From contig NZ_PDOB01000002.1 of the NCBI RefSeq assembly GCF_002760665.1, positions 124,001 to 188,000 of the forward strand: a DNA stretch of 64,000 nt, in the 5' to 3' direction. This DNA comes from Massilia psychrophila. Lineage in GTDB: Bacteria; Pseudomonadota; Gammaproteobacteria; Burkholderiales; Burkholderiaceae_D. Numbering within the stretch: position 1 is the stretch's first letter; every line of letters begins with the position of its first letter. Positions 40,884 through 64,000 of the stretch are shown one piece after another. The notes under the pieces were generated by a model that saw nothing but the letters and a program-made list of their open reading frames with translations, was not told the origin of the DNA and searched no databases. A program made the position numbers and the translations under genes.

Positions 40884-40932
40884 AAGCTCACCATCAACTT
40901 CATTTGACTACCACCTCACCTACTGATTCGCT

Positions 40933-42462: not shown

Positions 42463-43544
42463 AAACGACCGAACTCCCACGCTGGGCCACCGCACTGGTG
42501 CTGCCCGTCCTGAACCTGGTATCGGCGCTGCTGGTCGCCGCGCTGGTAATCCACCTGCTTGGCGAAAGCCCGGTCGAATCGATGACGATTTTGATCAACA
42601 GCGCCATCATCAATCCGGAAGGTTTGTCGTACACGCTGTTCTATGCCTCGACCTTCATCTTCACCGGGCTGTCGGTATCGATCGCGATGAAGGCGGGCCT
42701 GTTCAACATTGGCAGCGAAGGCCAGATGTATCTCGGCGGCCTTGGCCTGACGCTGGCGATGCTGGCGTTCGACGCGTCGCTGCCGGCATGGCTCCTGATT
42801 CCCGCCGCTATGCTGGGGGCCTCGCTGTTCGGCGCCTTGTGGGCCTTCATTCCCGGCTACCTGCAGGCGAAACGCGGCAGCCACGTGGTGGTCACCACCA
42901 TCATGTTCAACTTCATCGCCGCCAGCCTGATGAATTTCATCATCGTCAAATACCTGATTCCCGAGGGCCAGCAAAATCCGGCCAGCCGCGTGTCCGCCGA
43001 TGCTGGTGCGATGCCGCGCCTGAACGCGTGGTTTCCGGTGCTGGGCGACACGCCGCTCAACGTCAGCTTCCTGCTGGCCATCGTGGCGCTGGTCATTTAT
43101 GGCGTCATGGTGTGGCGCTCGGCGTGGGGTTACCAGCTGCGCGCAACCGGCCTCAATCAGCACGCGGCGCATTACGCCGGCGTGTCGATCAACCGCACCA
43201 TCATTGTCGCGATGCTGATCTCCGGCGCCCTCGCCGGCTTGGCCGCCGTCAATTCGATCATGGGTTCGACCCACTACCTGTCGCTCAATTTCCCGGCCGG
43301 CGCCGGCTTTGTCGGCATCGCCATCGCGCTGATGGGGCGCCAGCACCCGGTCGGCATCTTCCTGTCGGCGGTGCTGTTCGGCGCGCTGATCCAGGGCGGC
43401 TTCGACCTGTCGCTGGAAAAACCGAACATCCCGCAGGAAACCTTCATTTTCATCCAGGGTTTGATCATCCTGTTCTGCGGCGCGATGGAAAATTTTTACG
43501 GCCCCGCCGTCCTCAAGCTGATCAACCTGCGCCGGAAGGGATAA
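42459..43544 (+). CDS. Nucleoside ABC transporter permease 1
   Basis: 361 residues from ATG 42459, which overlaps the ATPase stop. About nine membrane helices; ASTFIFTGLSVSIAMKAGLF, NIGSEGQMYLGG and the loop GLNQHAAHYAGVSINRT are typical of BranchedChain_AA/ribose-type permeases of BMP systems (YufP/NupB-like). It would form a heterodimer with the next gene's product. Confidence 0.92.
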   Translation: MKTTELPRWATALVLPVLNLVSALLVAALVIHLLGESPVESMTILINSAIINPEGLSYTLFYASTFIFTGLSVSIAMKAGLFNIGSEGQMYLGGLGLTLAMLAFDASLPAWLLIPAAMLGASLFGALWAFIPGYLQAKRGSHVVVTTIMFNFIAASLMNFIIVKYLIPEGQQNPASRVSADAGAMPRLNAWFPVLGDTPLNVSFLLAIVALVIYGVMVWRSAWGYQLRATGLNQHAAHYAGVSINRTIIVAMLISGALAGLAAVNSIMGSTHYLSLNFPAGAGFVGIAIALMGRQHPVGIFLSAVLFGALIQGGFDLSLEKPNIPQETFIFIQGLIILFCGAMENFYGPAVLKLINLRRKG

Positions 43545-43547
43545 GCC

Positions 43548-44516
43548 ATGTTCGAAGACCTGCATTTAGCCAGCATCGTGGTGGCGACCATCCGCAGCGC
43601 GCCGGTATTGATCTTCGCCGCGTTGGCCGGCCTGTTCGCCGAACGCAGCGGCGTGATCGACCTGGCGCTCGAGGGCAAGATCCTGGCCAGCGCGTTCGCC
43701 TCGGCGGCGGTCGCCTACACGACGCAAAACCCGTGGTATGGCGTCGCCGCCGGCCTGGCCGTGTCGGCCACGCTGGCGCTGCTGCAGGGGTATGTCAGCA
43801 TCACGCAAAAAGGCAACCAGCTGGTGGCCGGCATTGCGATTAACATCGCCGTGAGCGGGCTGACGTTCGTGCTGGCGCAGTTCTTTTACCAGCAGGGCGG
43901 GCGCACGCCGGACCTCGGCGGTGCCCGCCTGTTCGACATCGTCCTGCCCGGCACCGCCGCGCTGGCAAACGTCCCCTTCATCGGCTGGTTCTACGGCCAC
44001 GTGATTGGCGGCCATTCGGTGCTGGTGTACCTGGCGTTCGCCCTGATCCCGCTGGTGCACTGGGTCGTCTACCACAGCCGATTCGGCCTGCGCCTGCGCG
44101 CCTGCGGCGAAAACCCGCACGCGGCCGACGCTGCCGGCGTCAACGTCGTAGCGACGCGTTACATGGCGATGCTGATCGCCGGCGTACTGTGTTCGTTTTC
44201 GGGCGCCTACCTGGCGATCGTGCAAAGCGGCTTCTTCTTGCGCGACATGTCGGCCGGCGCCGGCTACCTTGCCCTCGCCGCCCTCGTGTTCGGCAACTGG
44301 CGGCCAATCCATACAGCGCTCGGCTGCGTCATGTTCGGCTTCTTTTCGGCGGTGCAGATTCAAATGGAGGGCGTCGACCTGCCGGGCGTGGGCCGCATCC
44401 CCGGCTCGCTGATCCAGATGATCCCGTACGTCGTCACCGTCATCGTGCTGGCCGGCCTGATGGCCAAGTCGGTGGCGCCGAAATCGATCGGCAAACCGTT
44501 CGTCAAGTCGCGCTGA
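43548..44516 (+). CDS. Nucleoside ABC transporter permease 2
   Basis: 322 residues, about eight to nine membrane helices. APVLIFAALAGLFAERSGVI, then DLALEGKIL and the cytoplasmic loop RACGENPHAADAAGVNV match YufQ/NupC-like partners. Starts 3 bp after permease 1. The end of the importer operon is at 44516, convergent with a DUF2306 gene; the 37 bp between the two stops hold no clear terminator. Confidence 0.92.
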   Translation: MFEDLHLASIVVATIRSAPVLIFAALAGLFAERSGVIDLALEGKILASAFASAAVAYTTQNPWYGVAAGLAVSATLALLQGYVSITQKGNQLVAGIAINIAVSGLTFVLAQFFYQQGGRTPDLGGARLFDIVLPGTAALANVPFIGWFYGHVIGGHSVLVYLAFALIPLVHWVVYHSRFGLRLRACGENPHAADAAGVNVVATRYMAMLIAGVLCSFSGAYLAIVQSGFFLRDMSAGAGYLALAALVFGNWRPIHTALGCVMFGFFSAVQIQMEGVDLPGVGRIPGSLIQMIPYVVTVIVLAGLMAKSVAPKSIGKPFVKSR

Positions 44517-47496: not shown

Positions 47497-48330
47497 CTAG
47501 TCGGCGGCAAGCACGCTGGAACGGCCAAGCGTCCACGAAAAGCCGCCGCCGATCGATGTGCCGCTGTTTCTCCTCATCAAAGGGCTGTCGCGGTTGGCCG
47601 CGCCGGCATAGCTCTCGCCGCGCACGTAGCCGAACAGGCGCACGTCCTCGTTGAGCCGGTAGGACGCCGATAGTCCGGCGCGCGCCAGCATCAGGCCCGA
47701 TCTGGCCCGGTACGCCGGCCGCGCGGCAGTCGCATACTGCGGCGCCACTTCGTAGAAATAGCGATTGATGCCGCCGTCGCCGACCACCAGGCCGACGCTG
47801 GCGTCGATGCTCCAGTCGCTGCCGATGTCGCGCGTTGCGTATGTCAGGCGCGGCTCGAACGTGGTGCCCTGGCGCCGCACGCCGCCGCGAAACTCCATCA
47901 CGGCGCGCAGCGGCAAGTCGAGGCGCAAGCGGCTGGTCGGCGTCGGATTGGCCAACAAGACTTTTACGCGCGGCCCGAACTCGCCAAGGAAACCCAGGTC
48001 CGGCATGCCGGCGCGGGCGGCGCCGGCATTTGAGCGCGCCGGCAGCGAGGCGGCAAAGCCGATGTCCAGTTCGTAGCGCTCGCTGCGCAGCAGGCGCGCA
48101 CCGATGCCGGACGCGTCCGAACGCAGCACCTTGCCCCGATAAATCAGGAACGGCGCCGCCAGCGCGCGCGAGGAGCGCTGATCGGCGCCGGGATAGGCCG
48201 GTCCCGACACGGCGCCGCCGACCAGGCCGGCCTCCCATAAGGGCAAGGCCGGGGCCGGGGCCGAGGCTTGCTGCGCGACGGCCGGCAGCATGAAAGTGAG
48301 CGTCAATGCGCCAAAAATGAGCGGGCGCAT
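47497..48330 (-). CDS. MipA/OmpV-family outer membrane protein
   Basis: 277 residues. Signal peptide MRPLIFGALTLTFMLPAVAQ; the mature part begins LPLWEAGLVGGAVSGPAYPG, the usual MipA/OmpV start, and alternates beta-strands to a C-terminal GGGFSWTLGRSSVL. The family forms outer-membrane beta-barrels, sometimes scaffolds for murein enzymes, in other cases induced by specific solutes. It starts 3 bp after the S1/P1 nuclease stop, so the two are co-transcribed. Confidence 0.88.
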   Translation of the reverse strand: MRPLIFGALTLTFMLPAVAQQASAPAPALPLWEAGLVGGAVSGPAYPGADQRSSRALAAPFLIYRGKVLRSDASGIGARLLRSERYELDIGFAASLPARSNAGAARAGMPDLGFLGEFGPRVKVLLANPTPTSRLRLDLPLRAVMEFRGGVRRQGTTFEPRLTYATRDIGSDWSIDASVGLVVGDGGINRYFYEVAPQYATAARPAYRARSGLMLARAGLSASYRLNEDVRLFGYVRGESYAGAANRDSPLMRRNSGTSIGGGFSWTLGRSSVLAAD

Positions 48331-48333: not shown

Positions 48334-49383
48334 TTAAGGCCAGATGGTTTGCAACAGCGCGGCGAGCTTGTAGCCGCCCTTGATCAGCTGCGTCTTGGCG
48401 ATCGCTGAACTGGGCACCGGATAGTTGGCCGGCACTTCGAGGTTCCAGTTGTAATAGACGTCGCCCTTCTTGCTGGTCTGCCGGATGCCGGGGCCGGTAG
48501 TGACGCCGGCGTAGGCCAGCTTGGCGACCACCAGCACATCGTCGGCCCACTGGTACGGCCAGGTGGCCGGGTCGCCATTGTTTTTGCTGACCGCCGGCTT
48601 GCCGTCGATCACGGCCTGGGCGAATTTTTCCGGCGTGCGGGTGCTCATGCGGCGCATTGCGTAATCGACCGTGGTGCTGTCCCAGTACGAGTGGAACGGC
48701 TTGGTCAGCGCGCGCGGCACGCCTTCGCGCGGTTTCGGATTTTCGCCCGGGATGTGGCTTGCGCCCATGGCGGCGACCTTGTCGTCGTCCATCAGGAAGT
48801 TATTGCCGCCGCGCGAATCGAAGATCGCCACGGCGTCGATGTCGGTGTGCTTGTTGGGCACCACGAATTTGCCGTCCTTGCCAACGAAGGCGGCGCCGAC
48901 GTGCAGCGGCTGGTGGATGTCGCCGGTCATATGGGCTACCAGCAGCAGCGCCTGGCGCTTCGAAAAGCCATGCGGGTTCAGCGCCGGGTCCAGCTTACCC
49001 TGCAAGACGGCGATGGCCTGCTTGAGCGTCTGCACGATGTCGTGATGCGTGGTGCCGACGTCGCCGTCGTGGTAATGGTCCTTCTGGAACGGCACGCCGG
49101 TGTAATGGTATTCGCTCGCCTTTGGATTGGCGCCGACGTAGGCCACCATCTCGGGGGTCTGCGGGCCGCACCAGTCGCCCTTGACGCAGTCGGCCCAGAC
49201 CGAGACCGATTCGAGGCTTTCGCCGGGCAGCAGCAGCGCGCCGACCTGTTTCTCGGCGTTGCTGCCCTTGATCAGTTTGTCGGCGATGGCGCCGACGGCG
49301 CGGTGGCCGTCATTACCCCACGCGAGGGCGTCAAAGGACAGGAAGGCGCCGGTCAGGGCGATCACGCAAGCGAGTTTTTTCAT
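48334..49383 (-). CDS. Secreted S1/P1-type nuclease
   Basis: 349 residues from ATG 49383, with AAGGA 8-10 nt upstream. Signal peptide MKKLACVIALTGAFLSFDAL, cleaved after ALA so that the mature chain starts WGNDGHRAVG, as in S1/P1 nucleases whose N-terminal Trp and His bind zinc. Further zinc ligands appear in LVAHMTGDIHQPLHVGA and SRGGNNF. The family hydrolyses single-stranded DNA and RNA to 5'-nucleotides and has 3'-nucleotidase activity. With the adjacent 5'-nucleotidase it would turn external nucleic acid into nucleosides. Confidence 0.92.
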   Translation of the reverse strand: MKKLACVIALTGAFLSFDALAWGNDGHRAVGAIADKLIKGSNAEKQVGALLLPGESLESVSVWADCVKGDWCGPQTPEMVAYVGANPKASEYHYTGVPFQKDHYHDGDVGTTHHDIVQTLKQAIAVLQGKLDPALNPHGFSKRQALLLVAHMTGDIHQPLHVGAAFVGKDGKFVVPNKHTDIDAVAIFDSRGGNNFLMDDDKVAAMGASHIPGENPKPREGVPRALTKPFHSYWDSTTVDYAMRRMSTRTPEKFAQAVIDGKPAVSKNNGDPATWPYQWADDVLVVAKLAYAGVTTGPGIRQTSKKGDVYYNWNLEVPANYPVPSSAIAKTQLIKGGYKLAALLQTIWP

Positions 49384-49438
49384 GTTGGTTTTCCTTGAGT
49401 TTGAACCGTAGCGCTTGATCCGAGCCGGGGCATGCATC

Positions 49439-51130
49439 TTAGTTTACTCTTTCAATGCGCGCAGAAGGAAGAGCCGGCGCCGCCAATGCCGCGCCAGCGG
49501 CGCCAGGCTGGTTCCTGGCCAGGTAGCCGATCAAGGCTTCGAGGTCGAGGATGCGGGTGTCGGCCTTGTTGGCCGCCTGCCTGAACGCCGGGTAGCCGTC
49601 GCCGCCTTCGGCCAGGAAGTTATTGGCCACCACCTTGTAGGTCCTGGCGTCGTCGAGCGGCGCACCGTTGATCCGCACACTGCCTGGCACCACGCGCTGG
49701 CCATCCGGCCTGGCGTTGTCCCATTGGTAGTACAGGGAGCGCGACACCTGCAGCATCGCACGGCCCGAGGCACGCAGCCACTGTTGCTCGAGCACTGCGC
49801 GCAGCTGGGCGCCGGTCATGTCCATCACCACCAACGTGTTCGAGAAAGGCAGCACAGCCTGTGCCTGGCCAAAGGTCGCAACAAGGTTCTCGGACACGTC
49901 GAAATCGCTGCGCAGGCCGCCCATGTTCATGAAGCCGACCTGCACGCCCTCGGCGCGAGTGGCATCGACGACGGCGTCGGCAACCAGGTTGCCGAGCGCC
50001 GATTCGCCCGCATCGTTCATCCGGCGCGCGGTGCTGCGCTGCGCCACGCGCGCAACCGGCCGCGCCAGCGCGGCCGAACTTTGCGCCTTGACCGCGGCGA
50101 GGTAGCCGGCCACTTTCGGGTCGGCCGGGTATTCGCCCGGCCGCACCGCCACGTTGCGCACGACGACGTCACGCACGCTGCCGCTGGCCGGATCGATCGA
50201 CAGTTTTATGCGCGACAGCACATGGCCGCCCATCTGCGCCTGCGTAATGGTGCGCCCGCCTGCCTTGCATTGAAAACCGCTGTGGCTATGGCCACTGATG
50301 ACCAAGCGGATGGCCGGGTCGAGCCTTTCGGCGATGCCCACCACCGGCCCTTTGAGTTCGGTGCAGTCGGCCTGGTCGAACGGCTCGGTGGTGTTGCCGC
50401 CTTCGTGGATCAGCGCCACGAACACGCTTGCTCCTTGCGCGCGTGCCTGCACCAGCGCGGCGTTGATGGCGTCCGCTTCGTCGGTAAACGCCAGGCCCTC
50501 GATGCTGGAGGCCAGCACCACTGACGGCGTGTTTTTCAGCACCGCGCCGATGAAGGCCACCTTGACGCCCTTGACCTGTTCGATCGAGAAGGCCGGCAGC
50601 AGCGGCTTGCCGGTGACCTTGTCGATCACGTTGGCGCCCAGGTAGGTAAAGGCGGCGCCGCGGAAATCGGGCGCTAGCTTGCAGGCTTTACCACCGGGTT
50701 CGCCCTGGCAGCCGCCATGCTGCTTGCGCAGCAGTTCGGCGCGGCCCAGGTCGAATTCGTGGTTGCCGACCGAGCTGAATTTCATGCCGAGCATGCTCAG
50801 TGCGACGATGCTCGGCTCGTCGGCCCACATCGACGACATGGCCGGCGTACCGCCCACCAGGTCGCCGGCACCGACCAGCACCAGGTCCTTGTCTTCGAGC
50901 CTAAAAGCCTGCAGGGCGGCGGCCAGGTTGTCGATGCCGCCGGCCATGATGGTGTTTTCCTTGCCGTCGCGCGCGCTGGTGTAGACGAATTTGCTCGCCT
51001 CTAAGTGGCCGTGGAAGTCGTTCAATGCGACCAGGTTGATCTCGATCGGAGCCGGCGGCGTGGGCGCCAGCGGGGCGCAGCCGGCGGCGAGGCAGGCGAC
51101 GACGAGCAGGCAGAGCGGGGTTTTAATCAT
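49439..51130 (-). CDS. 5'-nucleotidase/2',3'-cyclic phosphodiesterase-type lipoprotein
   Basis: 563 residues from ATG 51130; the frame to 51241 adds 37 residues of non-signal sequence. MIKTPLCLLVVACLAAGC has a lipobox (LAAGC, Cys 18). N-terminal metallophosphatase: VALNDFHGHLE, GAGDLVGGTPA, GNHEFDLG and SGHSHSG. C-terminal 5'-nucleotidase substrate domain: GNLVADAVVDATR, FMNMGGLRSDF and a C-terminal FLAEGGDGYPAF stacking motif. It removes phosphate from nucleotides at the cell surface or in the periplasm. Confidence 0.92.
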   Translation of the reverse strand: MIKTPLCLLVVACLAAGCAPLAPTPPAPIEINLVALNDFHGHLEASKFVYTSARDGKENTIMAGGIDNLAAALQAFRLEDKDLVLVGAGDLVGGTPAMSSMWADEPSIVALSMLGMKFSSVGNHEFDLGRAELLRKQHGGCQGEPGGKACKLAPDFRGAAFTYLGANVIDKVTGKPLLPAFSIEQVKGVKVAFIGAVLKNTPSVVLASSIEGLAFTDEADAINAALVQARAQGASVFVALIHEGGNTTEPFDQADCTELKGPVVGIAERLDPAIRLVISGHSHSGFQCKAGGRTITQAQMGGHVLSRIKLSIDPASGSVRDVVVRNVAVRPGEYPADPKVAGYLAAVKAQSSAALARPVARVAQRSTARRMNDAGESALGNLVADAVVDATRAEGVQVGFMNMGGLRSDFDVSENLVATFGQAQAVLPFSNTLVVMDMTGAQLRAVLEQQWLRASGRAMLQVSRSLYYQWDNARPDGQRVVPGSVRINGAPLDDARTYKVVANNFLAEGGDGYPAFRQAANKADTRILDLEALIGYLARNQPGAAGAALAAPALPSARIERVN

Positions 51131-51219
51131 AAGTTGGAAGCATAAAGAAGTTTTCGGGGCAGCGCCAGCACAGGCTGCATGGCGGCGGGAGGCGCCGTCA
51201 ATACAAAGCGGCGCGCAAT

Positions 51220-51247
51220 AAAAAAGGGCTGGTGTCGCCACCAGCCC
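51220..51247 (-). terminator. Intrinsic terminator of TonB receptor gene
   Basis: GGGCTGGTG (51226-51234) pairs with CACCAGCCC (51239-51247) around a TCGC loop; on the minus strand the stem is followed by six T (A at 51220-51225 on the plus strand). It lies just after the receptor stop codon, so the 5'-nucleotidase gene downstream needs read-through or its own promoter. Confidence 0.85.
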
Positions 51248-51270
51248 CTCGTTTCAATCAAGCGGATTCC

Positions 51271-54200
51271 TTAGAAATCGTACTTGAAGGTAGCTTGCAC
51301 GGCCCACTGCGATTCGCCCTTGGCCTGACGAACGTCGAGGTTTTCCACTTGCGGACGCACGGCGTAAATGTACTTGCCGGTGGCAGCATCGGTACCGACA
51401 TAGTCGACGAAGCTGCGCGCCAGACCGCCATTGCTCTGGAAGCCGACTTCATTGATACGGCCCCATTTTTTGTTCAGCAGGTTACCGAAGTTAAGGAAGT
51501 CGAGGCTGAAGCTTGCCTTGTTACGGGCAAACAGGCCTGGAATTTCCTGGCTGATGCGCAGGTCGATGCTGTTGGTCCATGGCGAGAAGTCGGTGTTACG
51601 GCCGACGATACCACCAGCTGAGCGGCTGAGCACCTTGTTGGCATTGACCACATCCCAGAATTTCTGCTCGTTGCCATGGCTGGTGGCGCTGTCGCCAGCG
51701 AACAGCACGTCGCCCGAACCAAAGGCCTTCGGAATGTACATGCGGTCATTGCCACCGAGGCCGTCACCGTTCAAGTCGTTGTTGACGGTCCAGCTGAAAG
51801 GCTTGCCCGAACGACCTTCATAGAACACGCCGAAACGGGTGTTGTAGGTGCTGAAGAACTTCTTCTGGAAGTTGAACAAGGCGTTGATACGGTCCTTCAC
51901 CAGGTAGCTCGAATTGGTGGCGGTGTTTTCATTCGGATTGAATACCGAGCGACCGTTCCAGTTCGAGGTCGACACCGACGAAGTCAGCGACGACACTTCC
52001 GTCGAGGTGGTCTTCGTGGCAGCGATCGACCAGCCATAGCCTTTGCTCAGCGGACGCGAGAACGACACGGTGCCGACATTGGCGCTGCCCAGATCGGTGC
52101 CTTTGGCGAGCATCACGTTACCGTAGCTCAGGTTGCTCAAAGCCTTGCTGGTGACGCAGTTCGGCGTGATGGTGACGGTGCCATTACTGGCCACGTAGCA
52201 GCTGGCCCGGTAGCCGCCGGCGTTGTAGTACAGATTACGACCGTCGGTACCGATCCTGGTTGGCGCGCCCAGGTTCAGGCTTTCGTAGTAAATCGCATCC
52301 TTGTTCTTGGTATGCAGAAATTCAGCCGAAAACACGATATTTTGCCATGGCAGTTCGGTATCGAACGCGATGTTGGCTTTCCACACTGCTGGTTGGTGGA
52401 AGTTCGGGTCGAGGAAGTCGACGTTGGAGGCCGGGGTGGCGCCAACAACCGATGGCTGGCTGTCCGGGTTGGTGCTGAAGGTATTGTCGGCGGTCGGGCA
52501 CTTGGTGGCGCCCGTGCCGGAGCAGGTGATGATGCGCGACGCCACGCCAGGGTTGGAAAACTGGTTCGACATCCACACGGCCGCTGCAGCGCCCTGGAAC
52601 AGGCCGACACCGCCGCGCAACTGCATGGTGCGCTCGGTCGGCAGTTTCAGGTTGAAGCCAATACGCGGCTGCACCAACTTCTGGCCGTCAATAGTCTGGG
52701 TGTTGTCGTAGCCGAAGCCGCCCGACTGGCGCACGCCGGTGGTGGCGTTACCGGCCACCATCGGTGCAGCAGCGGCACTGTTAGCCAGCGGACGGCCGGT
52801 GACGCCGTTGTAGTCAACGCGCACGCCGCCCGTGAGGGTCAGGCTCTTGTTGACGTTCCAGGTATCCTGCACGAACACGCCGGTGTCTTGCAGGGCGAAC
52901 TGGGCGACGGCGTTGGCGAGCGTACCGCCGGCAACCGCTTGCTGCACCGTGTACGAACTTGGACGGCCACGCGAAAAATTCTCCAGCACGGCCGCTTCGA
53001 TTTGCGCGGTGCTGCCGGTGGCGCACTTGAACCCGGCCAGGCCGGCCGAAGTGTAGGTCACGTCGTCGCGGCAGCCAAATGTGTAGTTGCCGTTGATGTT
53101 TTGCAGGAAGGCGTTGTAAATCTTGGTGCTGGTGTAGTCGCTGCCAAACTTGATTTCATGATCGCCACGGGTCCAGGTGCCGCCCGCATACAGGTCGCGG
53201 GTGTCATTGCGCAGCACGTTCAAGTGGCGGCTCGACTCGGTACCGGCGTTGATGAAGCGGTTACCGACCGGGGTGCCGGGCGCCGCGCCTGCAGGCAGTG
53301 GGCCGCTCAATTGCAGCGAAATGGCCGGCAGGCGGGTGCTGTTGGTCGGCATCGAATCGTAGTCGCGCGTCGAGTACTTGAACTCGGTCGAGAAATTCGG
53401 GGTCCAGTCCGACAGCACCTGGCCGACGATGGTCTCGATGCTCTTGCCCTGGTTGTAGAACTGCGAGGCAAGGGTGACGCCGGTGGCGGAGAAGCCCGGG
53501 TAAATCGGGTCGGCCTGCGAGGTCTTCGAGTAACGCACGCTGGCGCGGTGGTTATCGTTGATGTTGTAGTCGAGCTTGATCATCTGCTCGCGCGAGACGA
53601 ACTGGGCCCCCTCCGGCACCGCGGTGGTGCCGAGGTCGAGGCCATAACGGGACTGGCCGATCGCGCGGGCGCTGTCGATCGACGACTGGGTGATCGGCAC
53701 GGTGGTGCCGGCATTGCTACCGACCTGGCCGAATCCAGGCGCGGAGCGCGAGCTCTTCGACTCTTCCAGCAGGGCGAACAGAAACAGTTTGTCCTGGATC
53801 AGCGGGGCGCTGACATAACCACCCTTGGTGGTTTCCTTGAATTTCGGCGCTGCGACATAGGTGTCGGAGGTGATGTTGTAACGGTCGCCCACCAGGCGGT
53901 CGTCGCGGGTGACGTAGTAAATGCCGCCCTTGACGTCGTTGGTGCCGGACTTGGTCACGGCATTGATGTTGGCGCCCGTGTAGCCTTTTTGGGTGACGTC
54001 GTAGTTGGCGACGTTCACTTGCACCGACTGGATCGCTTCGATCGAGATCGGCTGGCGCGCAGTCGGCGAGCCATTGCCTTCCAGGCCGAAGGTGTCGTTG
54101 ACGGCCACGCCATCGATGGTGATGGTGTTGTAGCGCGAGTTCTGGCCGGCGACGGAGATTTCGCCACGTTCCTTGTCGGTCTGCGACACGCGCGGGTCAG

Positions 54201-54690
54201 CGCGGGCGTAGTCTTGCAAGTTGCGCTGGATCGATGCCTGGGTGGCCAGTTCGGTGGCGCCGATGTTGGTGCCCGAACCCATGGTATTGCGCGAGAATTT
54301 ATCCGAACGGCTGGCGGCGCCAGTGACGGTCACGGTCTGGATCTGCGCGCCCAGGGTGGCGTCGATGGCAGCAGTTTCAGCCAACTGGGTATAGATGTCA
54401 GTGCGCTTTTCCGAAATACCGTTCTTGGTGATGGTGATCGTAAACGGGCCACCGGTACGCAGGCCGCGGGCGTTATAGCGGCCTTCGGCGTCGGTAGTGA
54501 CGGTGCTGACGGAACCGGACTCGTTGTGCACGATCTGGACCGTGGCGCCTGCCGCCGGCTTGCCGTCGGCGCCAGAAATGCGGCCGGCGATTGCCGAGGT
54601 CGTGTTTTGCGCGAACGCAGGCGCGGTAGCCAGCGCGATCGACAGCGCGAGCGCCATCTTGGTCAGCTGGATCCGTTTGTGATTGATCAT
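51271..54690 (-). CDS. Oar-like TonB-dependent outer membrane receptor
   Basis: 1139 residues from ATG 54690, chosen because MINHKRIQLTKMALALSIAL is a clear signal peptide (cleavage at AFA-Q); the longer frame has no signal. A carboxypeptidase-regulatory-like domain (AIAGRISGADGKPAAGATVQ) precedes the plug (ISVAGQNSRYNTITIDGVAV, NAVTKSGTNDVKGGIYY) and a large beta-barrel that ends in aromatic AVQATFKYDF. Oar-like receptors import large or unusual substrates with TonB energy. Position between a secreted nuclease/nucleotidase pair and an adenosine deaminase suggests a nucleic-acid-derived ligand, which is inference only. Confidence 0.9.
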   Translation of the reverse strand: MINHKRIQLTKMALALSIALATAPAFAQNTTSAIAGRISGADGKPAAGATVQIVHNESGSVSTVTTDAEGRYNARGLRTGGPFTITITKNGISEKRTDIYTQLAETAAIDATLGAQIQTVTVTGAASRSDKFSRNTMGSGTNIGATELATQASIQRNLQDYARADPRVSQTDKERGEISVAGQNSRYNTITIDGVAVNDTFGLEGNGSPTARQPISIEAIQSVQVNVANYDVTQKGYTGANINAVTKSGTNDVKGGIYYVTRDDRLVGDRYNITSDTYVAAPKFKETTKGGYVSAPLIQDKLFLFALLEESKSSRSAPGFGQVGSNAGTTVPITQSSIDSARAIGQSRYGLDLGTTAVPEGAQFVSREQMIKLDYNINDNHRASVRYSKTSQADPIYPGFSATGVTLASQFYNQGKSIETIVGQVLSDWTPNFSTEFKYSTRDYDSMPTNSTRLPAISLQLSGPLPAGAAPGTPVGNRFINAGTESSRHLNVLRNDTRDLYAGGTWTRGDHEIKFGSDYTSTKIYNAFLQNINGNYTFGCRDDVTYTSAGLAGFKCATGSTAQIEAAVLENFSRGRPSSYTVQQAVAGGTLANAVAQFALQDTGVFVQDTWNVNKSLTLTGGVRVDYNGVTGRPLANSAAAAPMVAGNATTGVRQSGGFGYDNTQTIDGQKLVQPRIGFNLKLPTERTMQLRGGVGLFQGAAAAVWMSNQFSNPGVASRIITCSGTGATKCPTADNTFSTNPDSQPSVVGATPASNVDFLDPNFHQPAVWKANIAFDTELPWQNIVFSAEFLHTKNKDAIYYESLNLGAPTRIGTDGRNLYYNAGGYRASCYVASNGTVTITPNCVTSKALSNLSYGNVMLAKGTDLGSANVGTVSFSRPLSKGYGWSIAATKTTSTEVSSLTSSVSTSNWNGRSVFNPNENTATNSSYLVKDRINALFNFQKKFFSTYNTRFGVFYEGRSGKPFSWTVNNDLNGDGLGGNDRMYIPKAFGSGDVLFAGDSATSHGNEQKFWDVVNANKVLSRSAGGIVGRNTDFSPWTNSIDLRISQEIPGLFARNKASFSLDFLNFGNLLNKKWGRINEVGFQSNGGLARSFVDYVGTDAATGKYIYAVRPQVENLDVRQAKGESQWAVQATFKYDF

Positions 54691-55226
54691 TGTATAATCC
54701 CTAAGATACAAATAGTTATGTGGAGTCCCCACCCGGCTTGTAGCCGTCGGAAAACTTCCCTGGTTACCGAGTACAAAACACCTTTGCCGCCACCTGTTGC
54801 GAGGAAAGCCATGCAATTTGCCGCGCGGAACTTGCAAGCATGACGTCTTGATATGTCATGTTGATGACAACATCGTCACAAACAGCGGCTGTACCTCGTT
54901 CGCTTATCAACTATGCATCACCCCCCCAGGCATGGCTAATACGTTTTGCCTGCTACATTTATATGAAAAAGCTATAAATGATCTTGAAGATTGGAAGCGA
55001 ACGACAATTTTTACGACGCGAATAAGGGAAGTAACCGCTGACGGATTATAAAGGAGGCATTCTTGTAAGAAATTCTTTCCAGTAGAATTTCAGTTTTGCC
55101 ACCGTGCAGTGTTCAATTGTGTCGCGGCATGACCACAAAGCTGCCGCCGACGTCTTTACAGCGAACAATTTCGTCGACAATGGGCACCGGCGTAAAGACG
55201 CCGGCTCATTCCCTGTAGCAGGGTAA
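54691..55226. other. 536-bp gene-free region upstream of TonB receptor
   Basis: No coding frame here is convincing on either strand. The region is clearly more AT-rich around 54900-55080 than its surroundings and should hold the receptor promoter. CCGGCGT (55187-55193) with ACGCCGG (55198-55204) forms a short hairpin 22 bp after the adenosine deaminase stop, a possible weak terminator. AGGG lies 9 nt before the receptor ATG. Confidence 0.5.
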
Positions 55227-56768
55227 TCAGTGCGCCGCGTGGACCGCGGCTTTGCGTGCGGCCGGCGCGGCGGCCAGCGCCGCAATCTGCGCCTCGAAGC
55301 GGCTGAAACGCCCATCCAGCTGCTTCGTCAACCGTTGTTTTTGCGCATTTGGCAGGAAGGCATAGCGCACGCCGTTGTACGACAGCTTCTTCACTTCGGC
55401 ATAGTCCGGCCGATAGCGGCTGGCAAACAGCACGTATTCGTTCGACAAGTCGTGGCGCGTAACACCGGCGTCGTCGGTCGACAGCACAAACGGCACGCCA
55501 TGCTTGCGGTACAGGGTGACCGGATGGTTGGCGCCGCGCACGCCGTTGATGAAGCCGTTGCTGGTCAGGTTGACTTCGACCGGGATGCCGAACTCGCGCA
55601 TTGTCTTCATCAGGCCGAGCGCGTTCGATTCGTGGGCCAGGTCGAGGCCATGGCCGATGCGATCGGCGCCAGCCAGGTTGACGGCCTGGTCGATGTGGAA
55701 CTTCAGCCCCTCGGGTGGCACGTCGCCGAGCGCCAGTTCGCCGGCATGCAGCGCGACTTTCACTGTTGGGTAGCGGCTTTTCAAGAAGCCGAACATTTTC
55801 ATGTGCAAGGTGTAGTCGCGCATCGACACGGCCTGGCTTTCTTGGCCGACGATGTTGACGCCGACGATCAGCTCGCTCTGGCCGGCTGCCTTGAAGCCGG
55901 CCACCATCGACGAAAACACCTGCGACGGCGCCAGCAGGCGCAGCACGTAGGCGTGGTAACGCATGGTGAAGTCGGCGTCGTCGATGCCGGCCGCGGCGGC
56001 GGCGATTTTCGCCACGTAGTCGGTTACGCCGCGGTTGAAGCCGGCGTCGCCCTCTAACTGGGCCAGCTGGCTGCGCATCAGCGCGGTAAAGCCGGCGTCG
56101 TCCTGGCCCTGTTGCCAGGCCTTCGCATCGAAGCCGGCGTCCGCCACGAAGGGCGCCAACTTGAACATGGTTTCGATGTAGCTGACGTTCTCGGCAATGG
56201 CGCGCGCCTTGAGCGTTTGCAGGCCGTCATTGAAATTGGCGTTCGAGACTGGGCCGAAAAAGCCGAAGGTCTGGAAGAACTGGCGATCCGGCGGCGGCTG
56301 GATCGCGCCGTGGTTATCAAAATCCTTGCTCGACCAGCGCTGCAGCAGTTCGCGGTAAGTAAAATCGTCGGCCACCAGTTCGCTCGACGACAGGCAGGTG
56401 CGGGCTGCCGGCGCCAAGGCGCGCTCGGCGTCGATGACCGCCTTGTCGGTCACCACGCGGTAACTCAGCTTGTTGACGCAGTAGCCCTGCTTGTCGAGAA
56501 ATTCCACGTACTGCTCGGCGTACAACGAGCCCGAATAATGATGGTGCAGGTCGGCGCCTTTCGGCATCTGCGAGAAAAACATCGTCAGTTCGGCCAGTTG
56601 CGGTTCGTCGCCCTGGCCGCGACCGTGGCCGCCGAGCAGCGCGGCGAAATAGCGCGCCGTGGCCGCTTCGTTGCCCTTTGGCGCGGGGCCTTTGGCGTCG
56701 GCGGTGCCAGCCAAGCTGGCCAGGGCCAGGGCCAGGGAAACGGTGACGCTGTAGCGTGTCTTGTGCAT
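55227..56768 (-). CDS. Exported adenosine deaminase-like enzyme
   Basis: 513 residues from ATG 56768; the frame to 56960 continues upstream without a start signal. Signal peptide MHKTRYSVTVSLALALASLA ending TADA-KG predicts export. Metal-dependent deaminase motifs are in order: KGADLHHHYSGSL (two zinc His), VALHAGE (His and catalytic Glu), RIGHGLDL and FVLSTDDAGV (zinc Asp). An insert of about 130 residues after the first motif makes it longer than cytoplasmic Add, like secreted ADGF-type enzymes. It would deaminate adenosine outside the cytoplasm to inosine. Ends with Ala-rich AALAAAPAARKAAVHAAH. Confidence 0.88.
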   Translation of the reverse strand: MHKTRYSVTVSLALALASLAGTADAKGPAPKGNEAATARYFAALLGGHGRGQGDEPQLAELTMFFSQMPKGADLHHHYSGSLYAEQYVEFLDKQGYCVNKLSYRVVTDKAVIDAERALAPAARTCLSSSELVADDFTYRELLQRWSSKDFDNHGAIQPPPDRQFFQTFGFFGPVSNANFNDGLQTLKARAIAENVSYIETMFKLAPFVADAGFDAKAWQQGQDDAGFTALMRSQLAQLEGDAGFNRGVTDYVAKIAAAAAGIDDADFTMRYHAYVLRLLAPSQVFSSMVAGFKAAGQSELIVGVNIVGQESQAVSMRDYTLHMKMFGFLKSRYPTVKVALHAGELALGDVPPEGLKFHIDQAVNLAGADRIGHGLDLAHESNALGLMKTMREFGIPVEVNLTSNGFINGVRGANHPVTLYRKHGVPFVLSTDDAGVTRHDLSNEYVLFASRYRPDYAEVKKLSYNGVRYAFLPNAQKQRLTKQLDGRFSRFEAQIAALAAAPAARKAAVHAAH

Positions 56769-57145: not shown

Positions 57146-58468
57146 TTAGGTCATCCCCGCCCGCTGGTGCACCAGCCGTCCACCTGAATAGGTAGCGCCG
57201 ATGGCGCGGTCGTCGCCCAGCAGCGCCAGTGCGAACAGCAGTTCTTCGAGGTTGTTGCACTCGGCGCTGCGGCGCGCCAGCAGCGGCGTCGCCTGCAAGT
57301 CGACGACGATGAAGTCAGCTTCAAGGCCGGGCGTGAAATTGCCGATCGACCCTTCCAGGCGCATGCTGCGCGCCGCGCCCAGGGTGGCCAAATAAAACAT
57401 GCGCGCCGCCGGCAGGTAGCTGCCCTTCATGCGCGCCACCTTGTACGCTTCGTTCATTGTGTGGAACATCGAGAACGAGGTGCCGGCGCCGACGTCGGAC
57501 GCCAGCGACAGCGTCACCGAAGCGGCGTCGGCGCCTTCGAAGTCGAACAGGCCGCTGCCCAAGAACAGGTTGGAGGTCGGGCAGACCGCCACCGCGGCCC
57601 CGCTCTCGGCCATGCGCGCGAAGTCGCGCTCATCGAACCAGATGCAGTGGCCCAGCATCGTGCGCTGGCGCAGCAGGCCGACACTGTCGTACACGTCGAG
57701 ATAGCTGCGCGAGGCCGGGAACAGCGACTGGACCCAGCGGCATTCGTCCGGGTTTTCCGACACGTGGGTCTGGATGAACGTATCCGGATAGGCTTGCGCC
57801 AGTTCGCCGGCCAGGCGCAGCTGGGTGTCGGTCGACGTCGGTGCGAAGCGCGGCGTGATGGCGTACAGCGAGCGGCCGTGCTTGTGCCATTTTTTGATCA
57901 GATCTTCGCTGTCACGCGCCCCGCCCTCGGCGGTATCGGCGAGAAAGTCGGGGCAGTTGCGGTCCATCAGGATCTTGCCGGCGACCATGCGCAAGCCGCG
58001 CGCCTCGCTGGCCTCAAAAAAAGCGTCGACCGACTCCTTGTGCACGGTGCAGTAGACCATCGCGGTGGTGGTGCCGCAGCGCAGCAGCTCGTCGAGGAAG
58101 AACTCGGCCACCTCGCGTCCGTGTGCCGGATCGGCGAACTGGCGCTCGGTCGGGAACGTGTACGTTTCCAGCCACGGCAACAGACCCGGCGCGGGCGAGG
58201 CGATCATGTCGGTCTGCGGGAAATGCAGGTGGGTGTCGATGAAGCCGGGCATGATCAGCTTGCCGCGGTAATCGACGACGTTCGTCCCTTCGGCCAGCAG
58301 TGGAGCCAATTGTGCATAGTCGCCGGCGGCGTGGATCTTGTCGCCGTCGACCAGCAGCAAGCCGTCCTCATGCCAGCAATAGGCATGTTCGGCGAACGCC
58401 GGGTCGGCGTGAAAATGCAGCAAGCTGGCTCGGTAAGCGCGCAGGTGAAGCGGTGTTGCTATCGACAT
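57146..58468 (-). CDS. guaD: Guanine deaminase
   Basis: 440 residues from ATG 58468 (a TTG lies directly before it). Amidohydrolase superfamily: GFIDTHLHFPQTD (two zinc His), TTTAMVYCTVHKES, FIQTHVSEN, LGHCIWF and SLASDVGAGTSFSMF. It deaminates guanine to xanthine, the substrate of the xanthine dehydrogenase encoded directly upstream in the operon (22 bp gap). Confidence 0.94.
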   Translation of the reverse strand: MSIATPLHLRAYRASLLHFHADPAFAEHAYCWHEDGLLLVDGDKIHAAGDYAQLAPLLAEGTNVVDYRGKLIMPGFIDTHLHFPQTDMIASPAPGLLPWLETYTFPTERQFADPAHGREVAEFFLDELLRCGTTTAMVYCTVHKESVDAFFEASEARGLRMVAGKILMDRNCPDFLADTAEGGARDSEDLIKKWHKHGRSLYAITPRFAPTSTDTQLRLAGELAQAYPDTFIQTHVSENPDECRWVQSLFPASRSYLDVYDSVGLLRQRTMLGHCIWFDERDFARMAESGAAVAVCPTSNLFLGSGLFDFEGADAASVTLSLASDVGAGTSFSMFHTMNEAYKVARMKGSYLPAARMFYLATLGAARSMRLEGSIGNFTPGLEADFIVVDLQATPLLARRSAECNNLEELLFALALLGDDRAIGATYSGGRLVHQRAGMT

Positions 58469-58490
58469 CAAAGATACTTTCCCAATACAG

Positions 58491-59492
58491 TCATGCAGAG
58501 CCTACCAGCCGCATCAAAGGTGCGCCGGCGTCGGCGCGGCAGCCAGCTTCCCATAAAATCAACAATTGTGCGCACACCGAGGCGGCGATCACGGCCGGCT
58601 CCTTGCTGGTGATGCCGGCCAGGCCGATCGGGCACGCCATCGCCTCGATGCGGGCGCAATCGAAACCGCGCGCGCGCAGCCGGTGTTCGAACTGCTGGCG
58701 CTTGGTGTTCGAGCCGATCAGGCCGAACCAGCCGACGTCACCGCGCGCGAGGATGGCTTCGGCCAGGCGCTGGTCGAGCGCGTGGCTGTGGGTCATGACC
58801 AGGTAGCTGGCCCCTGGCGGCGCATCCGCCACCATCGATTCGAGCGCATCGGTCGCTTCGATGCTGACGTTGGCCGGAACGTCACGCGGGAACATGTCGT
58901 CGCGCTCGTCGACCCAGGTGATGGTGCAAGGCAGGTCGGCCATCGCACGCACAACGGCGGCGCCGACATGGCCGGCGCCGAACAGCACCAGGTGAGCGCG
59001 CGGCGCCGCCACCGGCGCCACCAGCCAGCGGCGGCCATCCTGTTCCTGCATGACGTGGGCGCCGCGGGTGCGCGTAAAGACGGGTACTGGCGCGCCGGCG
59101 AGCTGCCCGCCGGCGCCGTCGAACAATGCGCTGTCGGGCGCGCCATCCAGCGCGGCCAGGCGCCAGGTATCAATAGTGCGGCGCCCGGCCAGCATCCGCG
59201 CCTGTTGCGGCTCCACCAGTTCGAACGCCAGGTGCACCACCCCGCCGCAGCACTGGCCCAGGCTGGGACCGAGCGCGAAGCGTTCGAAGTGGCGCGCGCG
59301 CGCGTCAAGCAGCATGGCGCGGCCGATGCCGATGGCGCGCCATTCGAGGTGGCCGCCGCCGACCGTGCCGGCCAGTGCGGCTGCGGCCACTACCATGCGC
59401 GCGCCCGGCTCGCGCGGACCGGAGCCTTCGACGATGGCGACCGTCACCAGCACCGCCGGTTCGCGCGCCGCCAGGGTCCATTCGTCCATCAT
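58491..59492 (-). CDS. xdhC: Xanthine dehydrogenase accessory protein XdhC
   Basis: 333 residues. Conserved VEGSGPREPGARMVV and LGPSLGQCCGGVVHLAFE (Cys pair that handles the molybdenum cofactor) in the N-terminal half; Rossmann-type LVLFGAGHVGAAVVRAMADL and VMTHSHALDQ in the C-terminal half. XdhC sulfurates and inserts the cofactor into XdhB. Its start overlaps the xdhB stop by 4 bp (ATGA). Confidence 0.94.
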   Translation of the reverse strand: MMDEWTLAAREPAVLVTVAIVEGSGPREPGARMVVAAAALAGTVGGGHLEWRAIGIGRAMLLDARARHFERFALGPSLGQCCGGVVHLAFELVEPQQARMLAGRRTIDTWRLAALDGAPDSALFDGAGGQLAGAPVPVFTRTRGAHVMQEQDGRRWLVAPVAAPRAHLVLFGAGHVGAAVVRAMADLPCTITWVDERDDMFPRDVPANVSIEATDALESMVADAPPGASYLVMTHSHALDQRLAEAILARGDVGWFGLIGSNTKRQQFEHRLRARGFDCARIEAMACPIGLAGITSKEPAVIAASVCAQLLILWEAGCRADAGAPLMRLVGSA

Positions 59493-61834
59493 GCGGCTCC
59501 ACCAATCGCCCCTTCAACGGCGGCGATCGACTTGAGGATTTCTTCGCAGGTCGCCGGCGCATTGAGCGGCGGGTTGACCTTGTGATCACCGACCGCTGAG
59601 ACGGCGTCGCGGATAGCGAAAAAAACCGAGAACGCCAGCAGCAGCGGCGGCTCGCCCACCGCTTTCGAGCGGTGAATGTTGTCGGCGACGTTGGCGTTGT
59701 CGTACAGTTTGACGCGGAAGTCTTGCGGGCAGTCCGACACGGCGGGAATCTTGTAGGTCGACGGCGCATGCGTCATCAACTTGCCGGCGCTGTTCCACCA
59801 CAACTCTTCGGTGGTGAGCCAGCCCATGCCCTGGATAAAAGCGCCCTCGACCTGGCCGATGTCGATCGCCGGGTTGAGCGAGCGGCCGGCGTCGTACAGC
59901 ACGTCGGCGCGCAGCAGCTTCGATTCGCCGGTAAGGGTATCGACGACGACTTCAGAAACAGCTGCGCCGTAGGCAAAATAGGAAAACGGATTGCCGCTCA
60001 TGGTTTTTGGATCCCAGTGCAGGCCAGGGGTCGCATAAAAGCCGTCGGACCACAGCTGCACGCGCGCCAGGTATGCCTTTTGCACCAGCTCCGGGAAGCG
60101 CACCTGGCGGCCGTTGACGAACACCGTGTCGGCCGCGAAGCACACCGCCTCGATGTCGCCGCCATACAGCTTGACGGCGTAGGCGGCCAGGCGGTTGCGG
60201 ATCTGGCGCGCCGCATCCTGCGCCGCCTTGCCGTTCAGGTCGGCGCCAGTCGACGCCGCCGTGGCCGAGGTATTGGCCACCTTGCTGGTGTCGGTCGCGG
60301 TGGCGCGCACGTTGGCCATGTCGACGCCCAGTTCGTGGGCCACCACCTGCATCACCTTGGTGTTGATGCCCTGCCCCATTTCGGTGCCGCCGTGGTTGAC
60401 CAGGATAGAGCCGTCGACGTAGACGTGGACCAGGGCGCCGGCCTGGTTCAGGTGGGTGACGTTGAAGGCGATGCCAAATTTTACCGGCGTGAGCGCGAGA
60501 CCTTTCTTGAGCACCGGGCTGGCGCGGTTGAAGGCGGTAATCGCTTCGCGGCGGGCGCGGTAGTCGCTCGATGCTTCGAGTTCCGCCGCCAGTGCGTCGA
60601 TGACGTTGTCGACGACTACCTGGCCGTACGGCGTGACGTTGCGGCCCTCACCTTCCTTGCCGTAAAAATTGAGGCGGCGGATGTCGAGCGGGTCGCGCCC
60701 GAGCTTGCGGGCGATGTCGTCGATCACGTATTCGATGGCGATCGCGCCCTGCGGTCCGCCGAAGCCGCGAAAAGCGGTGTTCGACTGGGTGTTGGTCTTG
60801 CCGCAGGCGGCGCGGATGTCGACATCCGACAGATAATACGTGTTGTCGAAGTGGCAGACCGCGCGCGTGGCGACCGGCCCCGACAGGTCGGCCGAGTAGC
60901 CGGCGCGGGTCACCATGTCGACCTTGGCGGCGAGGATACGGCCATCCGCGGCGTAGCCGACCTCGTATTCGTAATGAAAGCAGTGGCGTTTGCCGGTGAC
61001 GAGCATGTCGTCGTCGCGGTCGGCGCGCAGCTTGACCGGACGTTTCAGTTTCGCCGCCGCGATCGCCGCCGCCGCGCACCACAGTGCCGACTGCGATTCC
61101 TTGCCGCCGAAGCCGCCGCCCATGCGCCGGCATTCGACGACGATGTTATGCGAGTGGACGCCGAGCGCGTGGGCGACGACATGCTGCATCTCGCTCGGGT
61201 GCTGGGTCGAGCACAGCACCAGCATGCCCTTGTCTTCCTGCGGCACCGCGTAGGCGATCTGGCCTTCCAGGTAAAACTGCTCCTGGCCACCGACGTACAG
61301 TTCGCCTTTGACAAAATGGGGCGCAGCTTCGTACGCCTGGCGGTAATCGCCGCGCGTCAACCGCATCGGCGGCAGCACGTACGACTGCGCTGCCTTGGCC
61401 GCCTGCGGCGTCAGGATCGCCGGCAGGTCTTCGTAGACGATGTCAGCCAGGCGGGCGGCGCGGCGCGCCTGGTCGTGGGTGGTGGCGACAACGATAAACA
61501 TCGGCTGGCCGACGTACATGACGACGCCGTCGGCGAAAATCGGGTCGTCGTGGATGATCGGGCCGCAGTCGTTCAGGCCGGGGATGTCGCTGGCGGCGAA
61601 CACGTTCACCACGCCGGCGGCGGCGGCTACCCTTGAAAAATCCGTCGCGACGATGCGCGCGTGCGGCTTCGACGACAGCCCGAGGGCGCCGTGCAAGGTG
61701 CCCTGCACTTCCGGGATGTCATCGGTGTAGGTGGCCTGGCCGAGCACGTGCAGCGCGGCCGATTCATGGGCGCGCGGGACGCCGACGGCCTTCCATGCGG
61801 CTTCTTTCAATCCTGGGACGCCGGCGTCGTTCAT
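59489..61834 (-). CDS. xdhB: Xanthine dehydrogenase, molybdopterin-binding subunit
   Basis: 781 residues. GQATYTDDIPEVQGTLHGAL (domain start), VECRRMGGGFGGKESQ and AFRGFGGPQGAIAIEYV (cofactor/substrate loops), HGGTEMGQGINTKVMQVVA and a C-terminal GEPPLLLAFSVFFAIRDAV with the catalytic Glu before PPLL. It oxidises hypoxanthine and xanthine to urate. Overlaps xdhA and xdhC by 4 bp each. Confidence 0.96.
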   Translation of the reverse strand: MNDAGVPGLKEAAWKAVGVPRAHESAALHVLGQATYTDDIPEVQGTLHGALGLSSKPHARIVATDFSRVAAAAGVVNVFAASDIPGLNDCGPIIHDDPIFADGVVMYVGQPMFIVVATTHDQARRAARLADIVYEDLPAILTPQAAKAAQSYVLPPMRLTRGDYRQAYEAAPHFVKGELYVGGQEQFYLEGQIAYAVPQEDKGMLVLCSTQHPSEMQHVVAHALGVHSHNIVVECRRMGGGFGGKESQSALWCAAAAIAAAKLKRPVKLRADRDDDMLVTGKRHCFHYEYEVGYAADGRILAAKVDMVTRAGYSADLSGPVATRAVCHFDNTYYLSDVDIRAACGKTNTQSNTAFRGFGGPQGAIAIEYVIDDIARKLGRDPLDIRRLNFYGKEGEGRNVTPYGQVVVDNVIDALAAELEASSDYRARREAITAFNRASPVLKKGLALTPVKFGIAFNVTHLNQAGALVHVYVDGSILVNHGGTEMGQGINTKVMQVVAHELGVDMANVRATATDTSKVANTSATAASTGADLNGKAAQDAARQIRNRLAAYAVKLYGGDIEAVCFAADTVFVNGRQVRFPELVQKAYLARVQLWSDGFYATPGLHWDPKTMSGNPFSYFAYGAAVSEVVVDTLTGESKLLRADVLYDAGRSLNPAIDIGQVEGAFIQGMGWLTTEELWWNSAGKLMTHAPSTYKIPAVSDCPQDFRVKLYDNANVADNIHRSKAVGEPPLLLAFSVFFAIRDAVSAVGDHKVNPPLNAPATCEEILKSIAAVEGAIGGAA

Positions 61835-63383: not shown

Positions 63384-63415
63384 GGTTATACCGAATCGAT
63401 GATGTTGGTTATACC
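63384..63415. promoter_or_regulatory. Duplicated GGTTATACC in puuE-xdhA gap
   Basis: GGTTATACC occurs at 63384-63392 and 63407-63415, 23 bp apart, about 60-90 bp before the xdhA start; the second copy overlaps the puuE stop. It is a near-palindromic element and may be an operator for the xdh operon. Confidence 0.35.
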
Positions 63416-64000
63416 TTATTTTCCATACTAAAGGGGGTGGGGGCAGGATGAACCGCGCGCCAGTGCTCGGCGATGTCGATCCTGCGCGCGACCCACACCT
63501 TGTCGTGCCGTGCCACATAATCGAGAAAACGCGCCAGCGCGGCAGCCCTGCCCGGCCGGCCGATGATGCGACAATGCAAGCCGATCGACAACATCTTCGG
63601 CTGGTTTTGGCCGGCCGGATCGCCTTCGGCGTACAGCACGTCAAAGGCATCCTTGAGGTAATCGAAGAACTGGGTGCCGCAATTAAAACCCTGCATGGCG
63701 GCGAAGCGCATGTCATTGGTATCGAGGGTATAAGGCACGACCAGCTGCGCCCTGACGGTGCCTTGCACCGCAACCGGGTCCCAGAACGGCAGGTCGTCGC
63801 CATAATTGTCGGCGTCGTAGGCAAAGCCGCCGTGCTCGACGACGAGGCGGCGGGTATTTGGCGAATCGCGCCCGGTGTACCAGCCGAGCGGAGCAAAGCC
63901 GGTCAGTTCGCGCATGATGTGCACCGCTTCGGCCATGTGGGCGCGCTCGGTCGCCTCGTCGATGTGCTGGTACGAGATCCATTTCAGGCCGTGGCAGGCG
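63409..64000 (-). CDS. puuE: Allantoinase PuuE, C-terminal part (continues past window)
   Basis: The frame is open to the window edge; the first complete codons read ACHGLKWISYQHIDEATERA, the metal-site region of polysaccharide-deacetylase-type allantoinase. It continues with HIMRELTGFAPLGWYTGRDS, RLVVEHGGFAYDADNYGDDL and GFNCGTQFFDYLKDAFD, all typical of PuuE. The enzyme hydrolyses allantoin to allantoate without a classical amidohydrolase fold. It links the OHCU decarboxylase and allantoate amidohydrolase activities encoded at 8.5 kb. The N-terminal third lies outside the window. Confidence 0.93.
   Translation of the reverse strand, partial: ACHGLKWISYQHIDEATERAHMAEAVHIMRELTGFAPLGWYTGRDSPNTRRLVVEHGGFAYDADNYGDDLPFWDPVAVQGTVRAQLVVPYTLDTNDMRFAAMQGFNCGTQFFDYLKDAFDVLYAEGDPAGQNQPKMLSIGLHCRIIGRPGRAAALARFLDYVARHDKVWVARRIDIAEHWRAVHPAPTPFSMENKV

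Follow-up and report, generated by a model that had tools for sequence, protein, structure and literature searches.

What does an Oar-type TonB-dependent receptor bring through the outer membrane when its gene stands among genes for nucleic-acid breakdown? The question is raised by a 64,000-nucleotide stretch of the Massilia psychrophila genome (RefSeq assembly GCF_002760665.1, contig NZ_PDOB01000002.1, positions 124,001–188,000), here called the window, whose numbering is used for all coordinates. In it, genes for an S1/P1 nuclease, a 5′-nucleotidase (5′-NT) lipoprotein, an Oar-type receptor (Oar) and an exported adenosine deaminase (ADA) follow one another on the minus strand. In Massilia and its relatives, the control element of the receptor gene is also found at genes for nucleoside uptake and breakdown, and the receptor therefore probably imports pieces of DNA or RNA. 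We consider it likely that Oar is a TonB-driven outer-membrane importer of a nucleic-acid scavenging pathway, in a slot under recurrent exchange; the ligand, direction and regulator ascribed to it are inferred.

The original prediction named these four genes in a row, and their coordinates, Pfam domains and catalytic residues bear it out; its end coordinate, 56768, is the likely ADA start. Pfam matches of all four exceed curated cut-offs. The S1/P1 nuclease (48334..49383, likely start 49383; S1-P1_nuclease, 94.2 bits) has a predicted mature protein that starts at a zinc-binding Trp. Residues W1, H6, D44, H72, H130, D134, H140, H210 and D214 (mature numbering) are present and are presumably all nine ligands of the three-zinc site. 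The 5′-NT (49439..51130, likely start 51130) has a lipobox, LAAG↓C. It combines a metallophosphatase domain (Metallophos, 30.7) with a C-terminal nucleotide-binding domain (5_nucleotid_C, 139.3), the UshA/CD73-type architecture, and does not reach NCBIfam equivalog cut-offs. Oar (51271..54690, likely start 54690) consists of a signal peptide, CarboxypepD_reg (PF13620, 53.8), Plug (25.4 against a cut-off of 23.9) and an OMP_b-brl_4 barrel (PF25183, 155.8); the N-terminal CarboxypepD_reg before the plug is a feature of Oar-type receptors. ADA (55227..56768, likely start 56768; A_deaminase, 83.5) has intact HxH, HAGE, GHG and DD motifs, with H139/H141, H405, E408, H437, D496 and D497 as what we take to be the metal and catalytic residues. 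Its NCBIfam scores are under cut-offs, and adenosine specificity is putative.

A control element shared with nucleoside genes

The gap between ADA and the receptor contains an element common to genomes with unrelated receptors. It consists of ATTTATA-n9-TATAAAT, then CGTATTTGTCA, about 17 bases, then TGCATAGT. In the window it precedes Oar (54933..54979, minus strand), as a dyad and −35 of the ATTTATA-n9-TATAAAT ... GTATTTG type. A TG-extended candidate −10 hexamer, CATAGT (54910..54915, minus strand), was read from the sequence and is conserved in relatives; together they would form the Oar promoter. Genome-wide pattern matching places the other two copies before the ABC transporter operon (39577..39623, plus strand) and before the nucleoside catabolism operon xapA-deoBC-deoA (36374..36420, minus strand).

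A position weight matrix (PWM) was built from 63 relatives with the window excluded. It scored the three sites at 53.1 (Oar), 63.7 (transporter) and 54.6 (catabolism); the next scores in the window, 14.1 or lower, are the same dyads on the opposite strand, and the top score on reversed sequence was 10.7. A 43-base pattern with up to 3 mismatches matched the 4.73-Mb genome at those three places only, and the reversed pattern had no match. Among relatives the element is clear by eye in 64 of 68 loci; in four loci of genomes coded g32, a regular expression for it matched unrelated sequence only. Two to four sites each were found in 18 of 20 chosen relatives and none in two g32 genomes, with one match to the reversed pattern, in G132. 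Across 20 fetched regions the element stands ahead of the phosphorylase operon 16 times, ahead of the ABC transporter 15 times and elsewhere twice. With the element at receptor, transporter and phosphorylase genes, the receptor appears co-controlled with nucleoside uptake and breakdown.

The four genes had been expected to be co-expressed as one set. They do not look like a single co-expressed operon: Oar is preceded by an element of its own and followed by a terminator-like hairpin (51223..51250, minus strand), and the PWM scan of the window, which finds the element before the transporter and phosphorylase operons, finds none before ADA, 5′-NT, S1/P1, guaD or xdh. A riboswitch upstream of the receptor was considered and rejected, as no Rfam family reached threshold anywhere in the window.

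The dyad includes T-N11-A about 65 bases before the expected transcription start, counted from the element. Such a dyad at about 65 bp upstream would suit activation by a LysR-type regulator. A LysR-type regulator is encoded at 38657..39562 (plus strand), and all 16 motif-positive regions that cover psuG have a lysR match, against neither of the two motif-negative (g32) regions. This LysR protein probably binds the shared element; the island's helix-turn-helix (HTH)-PfkB protein is an alternative candidate.

Two genomes coded g5 have a fourth copy of the element (L260:4835-4881, L261:5022-5068), which precedes a response-regulator gene. Beside it is encoded a large protein of secreted type that has lamin-tail and endonuclease domains. 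We take this protein to be ExeM-like, and further genes there in L261 to be GspF/GspE-like. A link between the regulon and secreted nucleases is possible.

The genes so marked belong to a nucleoside/purine island of at least 35 kb (29–64 kb of the window). All four genes of the predicted set are present in it, and four was too narrow a frame, with transporter, phosphorylases, guaD, xdh and PuuE on either side. Family searches identified a xapA-type xanthosine/purine nucleoside phosphorylase, deoB, deoC, an aldehyde dehydrogenase and thymidine phosphorylase (deoA) at 29249..36341 (minus strand). An HTH-PfkB kinase stands beside a PF04227 gene, which we take to be PsuG-like (36547..38633, plus strand); the pair suggests pseudouridine use and hints at RNA as one source. 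The four-gene BMP-type ABC transporter (39749..44516, plus strand; PF02608, ABC_tran and BPD_transp_2), presumably bmpA, nupA, nupB and nupC, probably carries nucleosides, judging from family and context. Beyond ADA are guanine deaminase (guaD; 57146..58471, minus strand; NCBIfam guan_deamin, 571 bits) and xanthine dehydrogenase genes xdhC, xdhB and xdhA (58491..63324, minus strand). Part of an allantoinase PuuE gene (63409..63999, minus strand) runs over the window edge and matches part of the NCBIfam model TIGR03212 at 302 bits, under the whole-protein cut-off. After S1/P1, on the same strand, 45541-48330 encodes a MipA-family protein, a histidine kinase and a LytTR response regulator. The MipA-family outer-membrane protein (47497..48330, minus strand, by Pfam) is next in the array in many relatives, and mipA accompanies the array in several genus codes.

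Linkage and gene order in relatives

Oar and ADA were searched at E 1e-30 in 294 genomes of the family. Oar was found in 78, exported ADA in 115 and both in 76, counting one Oar row per genome (the second G260 piece was left out) and two of three ADA pieces in G261. ADA lies directly upstream of Oar on the same strand, with a gap under 1.5 kb, in 72 of the 76. Of the other four, two have 3–4 kb between the genes, one has ADA downstream and one has them across two contigs. Loci L115 and L116 have about 3 kb of extra unrelated genes between ADA and Oar; a second receptor was rejected as an explanation, because the extra DNA is not the other receptor type.

Eighty regions were fetched, chosen rather than random, from 31 of 39 Oar-less ADA genomes and 46 of 78 Oar genomes. 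ADA, Oar, 5′-NT and S1/P1 are all present in 43, and 3 more have Oar with some neighbors cut off or absent. Another 23 have ADA, 5′-NT and S1/P1 plus another receptor. The remaining 11 have ADA but no receptor, 5′-NT or S1/P1 match, and in one of these the region is truncated at a contig end. Loci whose fetched stretch shows exported ADA but none of the other three include L082-L085, L087-L090, L092 and L098, mostly of other genus codes.

The clustering goes beyond chance: the order guaD-ADA-Oar-5′-NT-S1/P1 recurs across the family. Most of the 80 loci have guaD and xdh upstream of ADA, and many have puuE. A set of 80 named loci (Massilia, Telluria, Duganella, Rugamonas, Pseudoduganella, Janthinobacterium and others, some strains overlapping the chosen regions) reads ADA-Oar-5′-NT in 77, and contig ends cut two of the remaining three. 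A class-wide ADA search matched 18 of 369 genomes; apart from the genome of the window itself, identity in the 17 matched does not exceed 40%.

The link to nucleoside genes is also found in other gene orders. In L350, a groundwater metagenome-assembled genome of a distant betaproteobacterium, an Oar 58% identical to the window's is followed by a cytosolic-type ADA, purine nucleoside phosphorylase, deoB, deoC, aldehyde dehydrogenase and deoA, with a 5′-nucleotidase on the other side of Oar; the N-terminus of this deaminase resembles the cytosolic type. The g32 order is ABC transporter, nucleoside hydrolase, oxygenase-like gene, receptor, 5′-NT, S1/P1 and ADA, where the receptor is Oar in L114 and of a classical type in L094, L097 and L104. 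No guaD or xdh match was found in the fetched stretch of L350 or L114.

Receptor exchange and barrel variation

At 23 of the 80 fetched loci the receptor place holds a different, classical TonB receptor, usually behind the same element. Twenty Oar-less loci have it, at about 800 residues, in an ADA–5′-NT gap of about 3 kb, and three g32 loci between the oxygenase-like gene and 5′-NT. The two classical receptors scanned match PF00593 and Plug, not PF25183. An ancestral tandem followed by losses is not favored, because none of the 80 loci holds both receptor types and a single Oar genome of the 78 (G156) has a classical receptor of at least 50% identity, located elsewhere; these genome-list receptor searches scored the best two or three candidates per genome. 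A Fisher exclusivity test over the 115 ADA genomes gave p ~1e-22; it ignores relatedness and was not used as proof. Relatives of the classical receptor adjoin 5′-nucleotidase in 11 of 20 loci outside the ADA array (L209, L210, L212, L217-L222, L224 and L226), and receptor plus 5′-nucleotidase may therefore be the core pair.

Receptor type was mapped on two quick trees of flanking genes, each with one support measure, for flanks that may themselves recombine. The ADA tree comprises 68 loci that have both ADA and a receptor (window included; four rows long-branched). Receptor type changes 17 times on it, at least 11 of them forced by well-supported branches; shuffled labels averaged 19.6 changes, and 60 of 500 shuffles were as low. 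On a guaD+xdhB tree of the 61 loci with long enough matches there are 16 changes, at least 14 forced, against 16.6 in shuffles (216 of 500 as low). Changes thus come close to the shuffled level, and receptor type holds little if any signal of flank history.

Fourteen receptor-swapped pairs were aligned by BLAST. In the three closest, flanks are 91–93% identical, and homology ends 13 bases before the ADA match end and resumes at the 5′-NT match start, except in one pair, where it resumes about 190 bases into that match. Between these flanks BLAST finds the element only. BLAST detects the element in 5 of the 14 pairs, while pairs further apart give either no match or different short matches. Of 69 receptor–5′-NT gaps of relatives, 63 contain a terminator-like hairpin behind the receptor, against 6 of 69 when shuffled; the wider region around the window receptor has 7 such hairpins, fewer than its shuffles (13.2). 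With this hairpin and a promoter element of its own, the exchanged unit looks like a complete promoter-receptor-terminator transcription unit.

These data also bear on the explanation that the substrate is unrelated or broad, the linkage being frozen gene order and the element a general promoter type. Gene order is often inherited, and sampling was mostly of one family. The explanation is nevertheless quite improbable, given only three sites in 4.73 Mb, the retention of the element alone within otherwise dissimilar intergenic DNA in the closest swapped pairs, and the survival of the link in different gene orders.

Variation within each receptor type is concentrated in the barrel. Oar was compared in 22 pairs with XdhB identity of 94% or higher: mean identity is 90% over the N-terminal part and plug and 72% over the barrel (range 60–96%), and six pairs of the classical type follow the same trend of plug versus barrel. 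Receptor distance correlates weakly with XdhB distance (r 0.43 and 0.47, against 0.75 and 0.92 for ADA). The nearest receptor is within the same genus for 41 of 45 Oar and 17 of 23 classical receptors, using genus codes entered by hand from genome lists, and is also nearest by XdhB for 20 of 43 and 4 of 20. Both types are present in all six genus codes. This suggests that alternatives have long been kept and are reshuffled mainly among near relatives. Loop-specific variation was rejected: barrel strands, taken from a middling structure model, score 0.59 and inter-strand segments 0.57, against 0.81 for the plug and 0.74 for the N-terminal domain. Strands and inter-strand segments vary alike, so the variation is barrel-wide and not confined to loops. 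Phage or bacteriocin pressure on the surface is a usual cause of such a pattern and may be so here; a change of ligand is an alternative cause.

A fuller reading, for which the case comes close to balance without tipping in its favor, is that the slot is a receptor-exchange locus. Two TonB-receptor families, each with several barrel types, would be swapped as cassettes within one fixed nucleoside regulon throughout a bacterial family, probably driven by phages or bacteriocins, and both would import DNA or RNA fragments.

Ligand, direction and proposed pathway

By its plug domain and predicted barrel fold Oar is a TonB-dependent transporter; the fold gives no ligand. The AlphaFold model (pLDDT 69, pTM 0.63, plug poorly modeled) matches PirA (Z 26.9, rmsd 4.1 Å), Cir (Z 25.9, rmsd 3.6 Å) and also BtuB. 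A TVTVTG stretch ahead of the plug is presumably a candidate TonB box. No solved relative of either receptor type was found by sequence at E 0.01. The ligand class of the original prediction, DNA, RNA or nucleotides, is supported as a prediction by the shared cis-element, the conserved linkage and the independent gene orders.

A narrower possibility is that the receptor imports purine bases or their oxidized products (xanthine, urate) rather than nucleosides or larger fragments, and the frequent guaD, xdh and puuE genes upstream of ADA fit it. It is quite unlikely, since the window element precedes nucleoside genes only, with no site before guaD or xdh, and L350 and L114 tie Oar to nucleoside genes in stretches that lack a match to either.

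Several points weigh against import of nucleic-acid pieces by Oar. Two of the 78 Oar genomes have no ADA match (G264, which has Oar-5′-NT, and G207, a fragment). The element is absent from g32 genomes and L350, and linkage alone supports the role there. The Oar promoter, whose −35 hexamer is weak in the window, went unflagged in a simple sigma-70 scan, and a promoter/terminator scan of the region gave no excess of either. The best NCBIfam matches of the ABC transporter are putative vitamin-B6 transporter models, far under cut-offs. Porins can admit molecules of nucleoside size, which makes the need for a TonB receptor less than obvious. Finally, the well-studied Oar of Myxococcus xanthus, which has the same N-terminal extension, plug and TonB-type barrel, is needed for secretion of the protease PopC and not for import, according to passages of the account consulted (PMC6434023), whereas the window Oar lies in a putative nucleoside regulon.

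That the receptor likewise works outward, secreting the neighboring ADA or S1/P1 across the outer membrane, would agree with exported ADA as the constant upstream neighbor of Oar, but is very unlikely and disfavored: another barrel family fills the same place with the same neighbors, the L350 deaminase begins like a cytosolic one while Oar heads a catabolic operon, and the shared element links the receptor to transporter and phosphorylases.

Import of nucleic-acid pieces is thus retained as the likely function. Oar would bring oligonucleotides, nucleotides or nucleosides into the periplasm, where the S1/P1 nuclease would cleave oligonucleotides to 5′-nucleotides, the lipoprotein 5′-nucleotidase would strip the phosphate and exported ADA would convert adenosine to inosine. 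The BMP-type ABC transporter would take nucleosides across. Phosphorylases, DeoB and DeoC would consume the sugar, and guanine deaminase, xanthine dehydrogenase and PuuE the purine base. The shared dyad-promoter element, probably LysR-bound, would switch on receptor, transporter and phosphorylases together. The self-contained promoter-receptor-terminator cassette would be swapped repeatedly between Oar-type and classical TonB receptors, with a diversifying barrel and a conserved plug, as expected if phages or bacteriocins use the receptor.

Tsx of Escherichia coli likewise serves the outer-membrane step of nucleoside use. Tsx is a passive small barrel without plug or TonB, and the genome of the window has no Tsx match. 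Xanthomonas carbohydrate utilization loci reportedly group a TonB-dependent receptor with enzymes and an inner-membrane transporter. They differ in substrate class, and in the Massilia slot the receptor family itself is exchanged in place. An Oar-like subclass of TonB-dependent receptors is named in passages of a Xanthomonas paper (PMC1790865). In marine nucleic-acid enrichments, the set of transcripts common to treatments includes TonB systems and NupC; these are community transcripts, and the passages concerned name no receptor family or locus (PMC7546218). The proposed analogy to Bacteroidetes-style uptake loci is loose, as no SusD-family partner of a SusCD-type locus was found among the neighboring genes scanned. 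In the literature searched on Oar, on nucleoside or nucleic-acid TonB receptors and on receptor exchange, the system is not described among the matches listed (mostly journal articles available without subscription), and DNA- or RNA-fragment uptake was not found as a substrate class for this receptor type.

Few Oar-type receptors have a known role, and one clade would now be tied to nucleic-acid scavenging, with a testable regulon. Recurrent in-place swapping under a constant element is a natural experiment that would set the pathway's need for an outer-membrane importer against a free surface barrel. It also means that close relatives allow a direct test of whether phages or bacteriocins exert pressure on a nutrient receptor.

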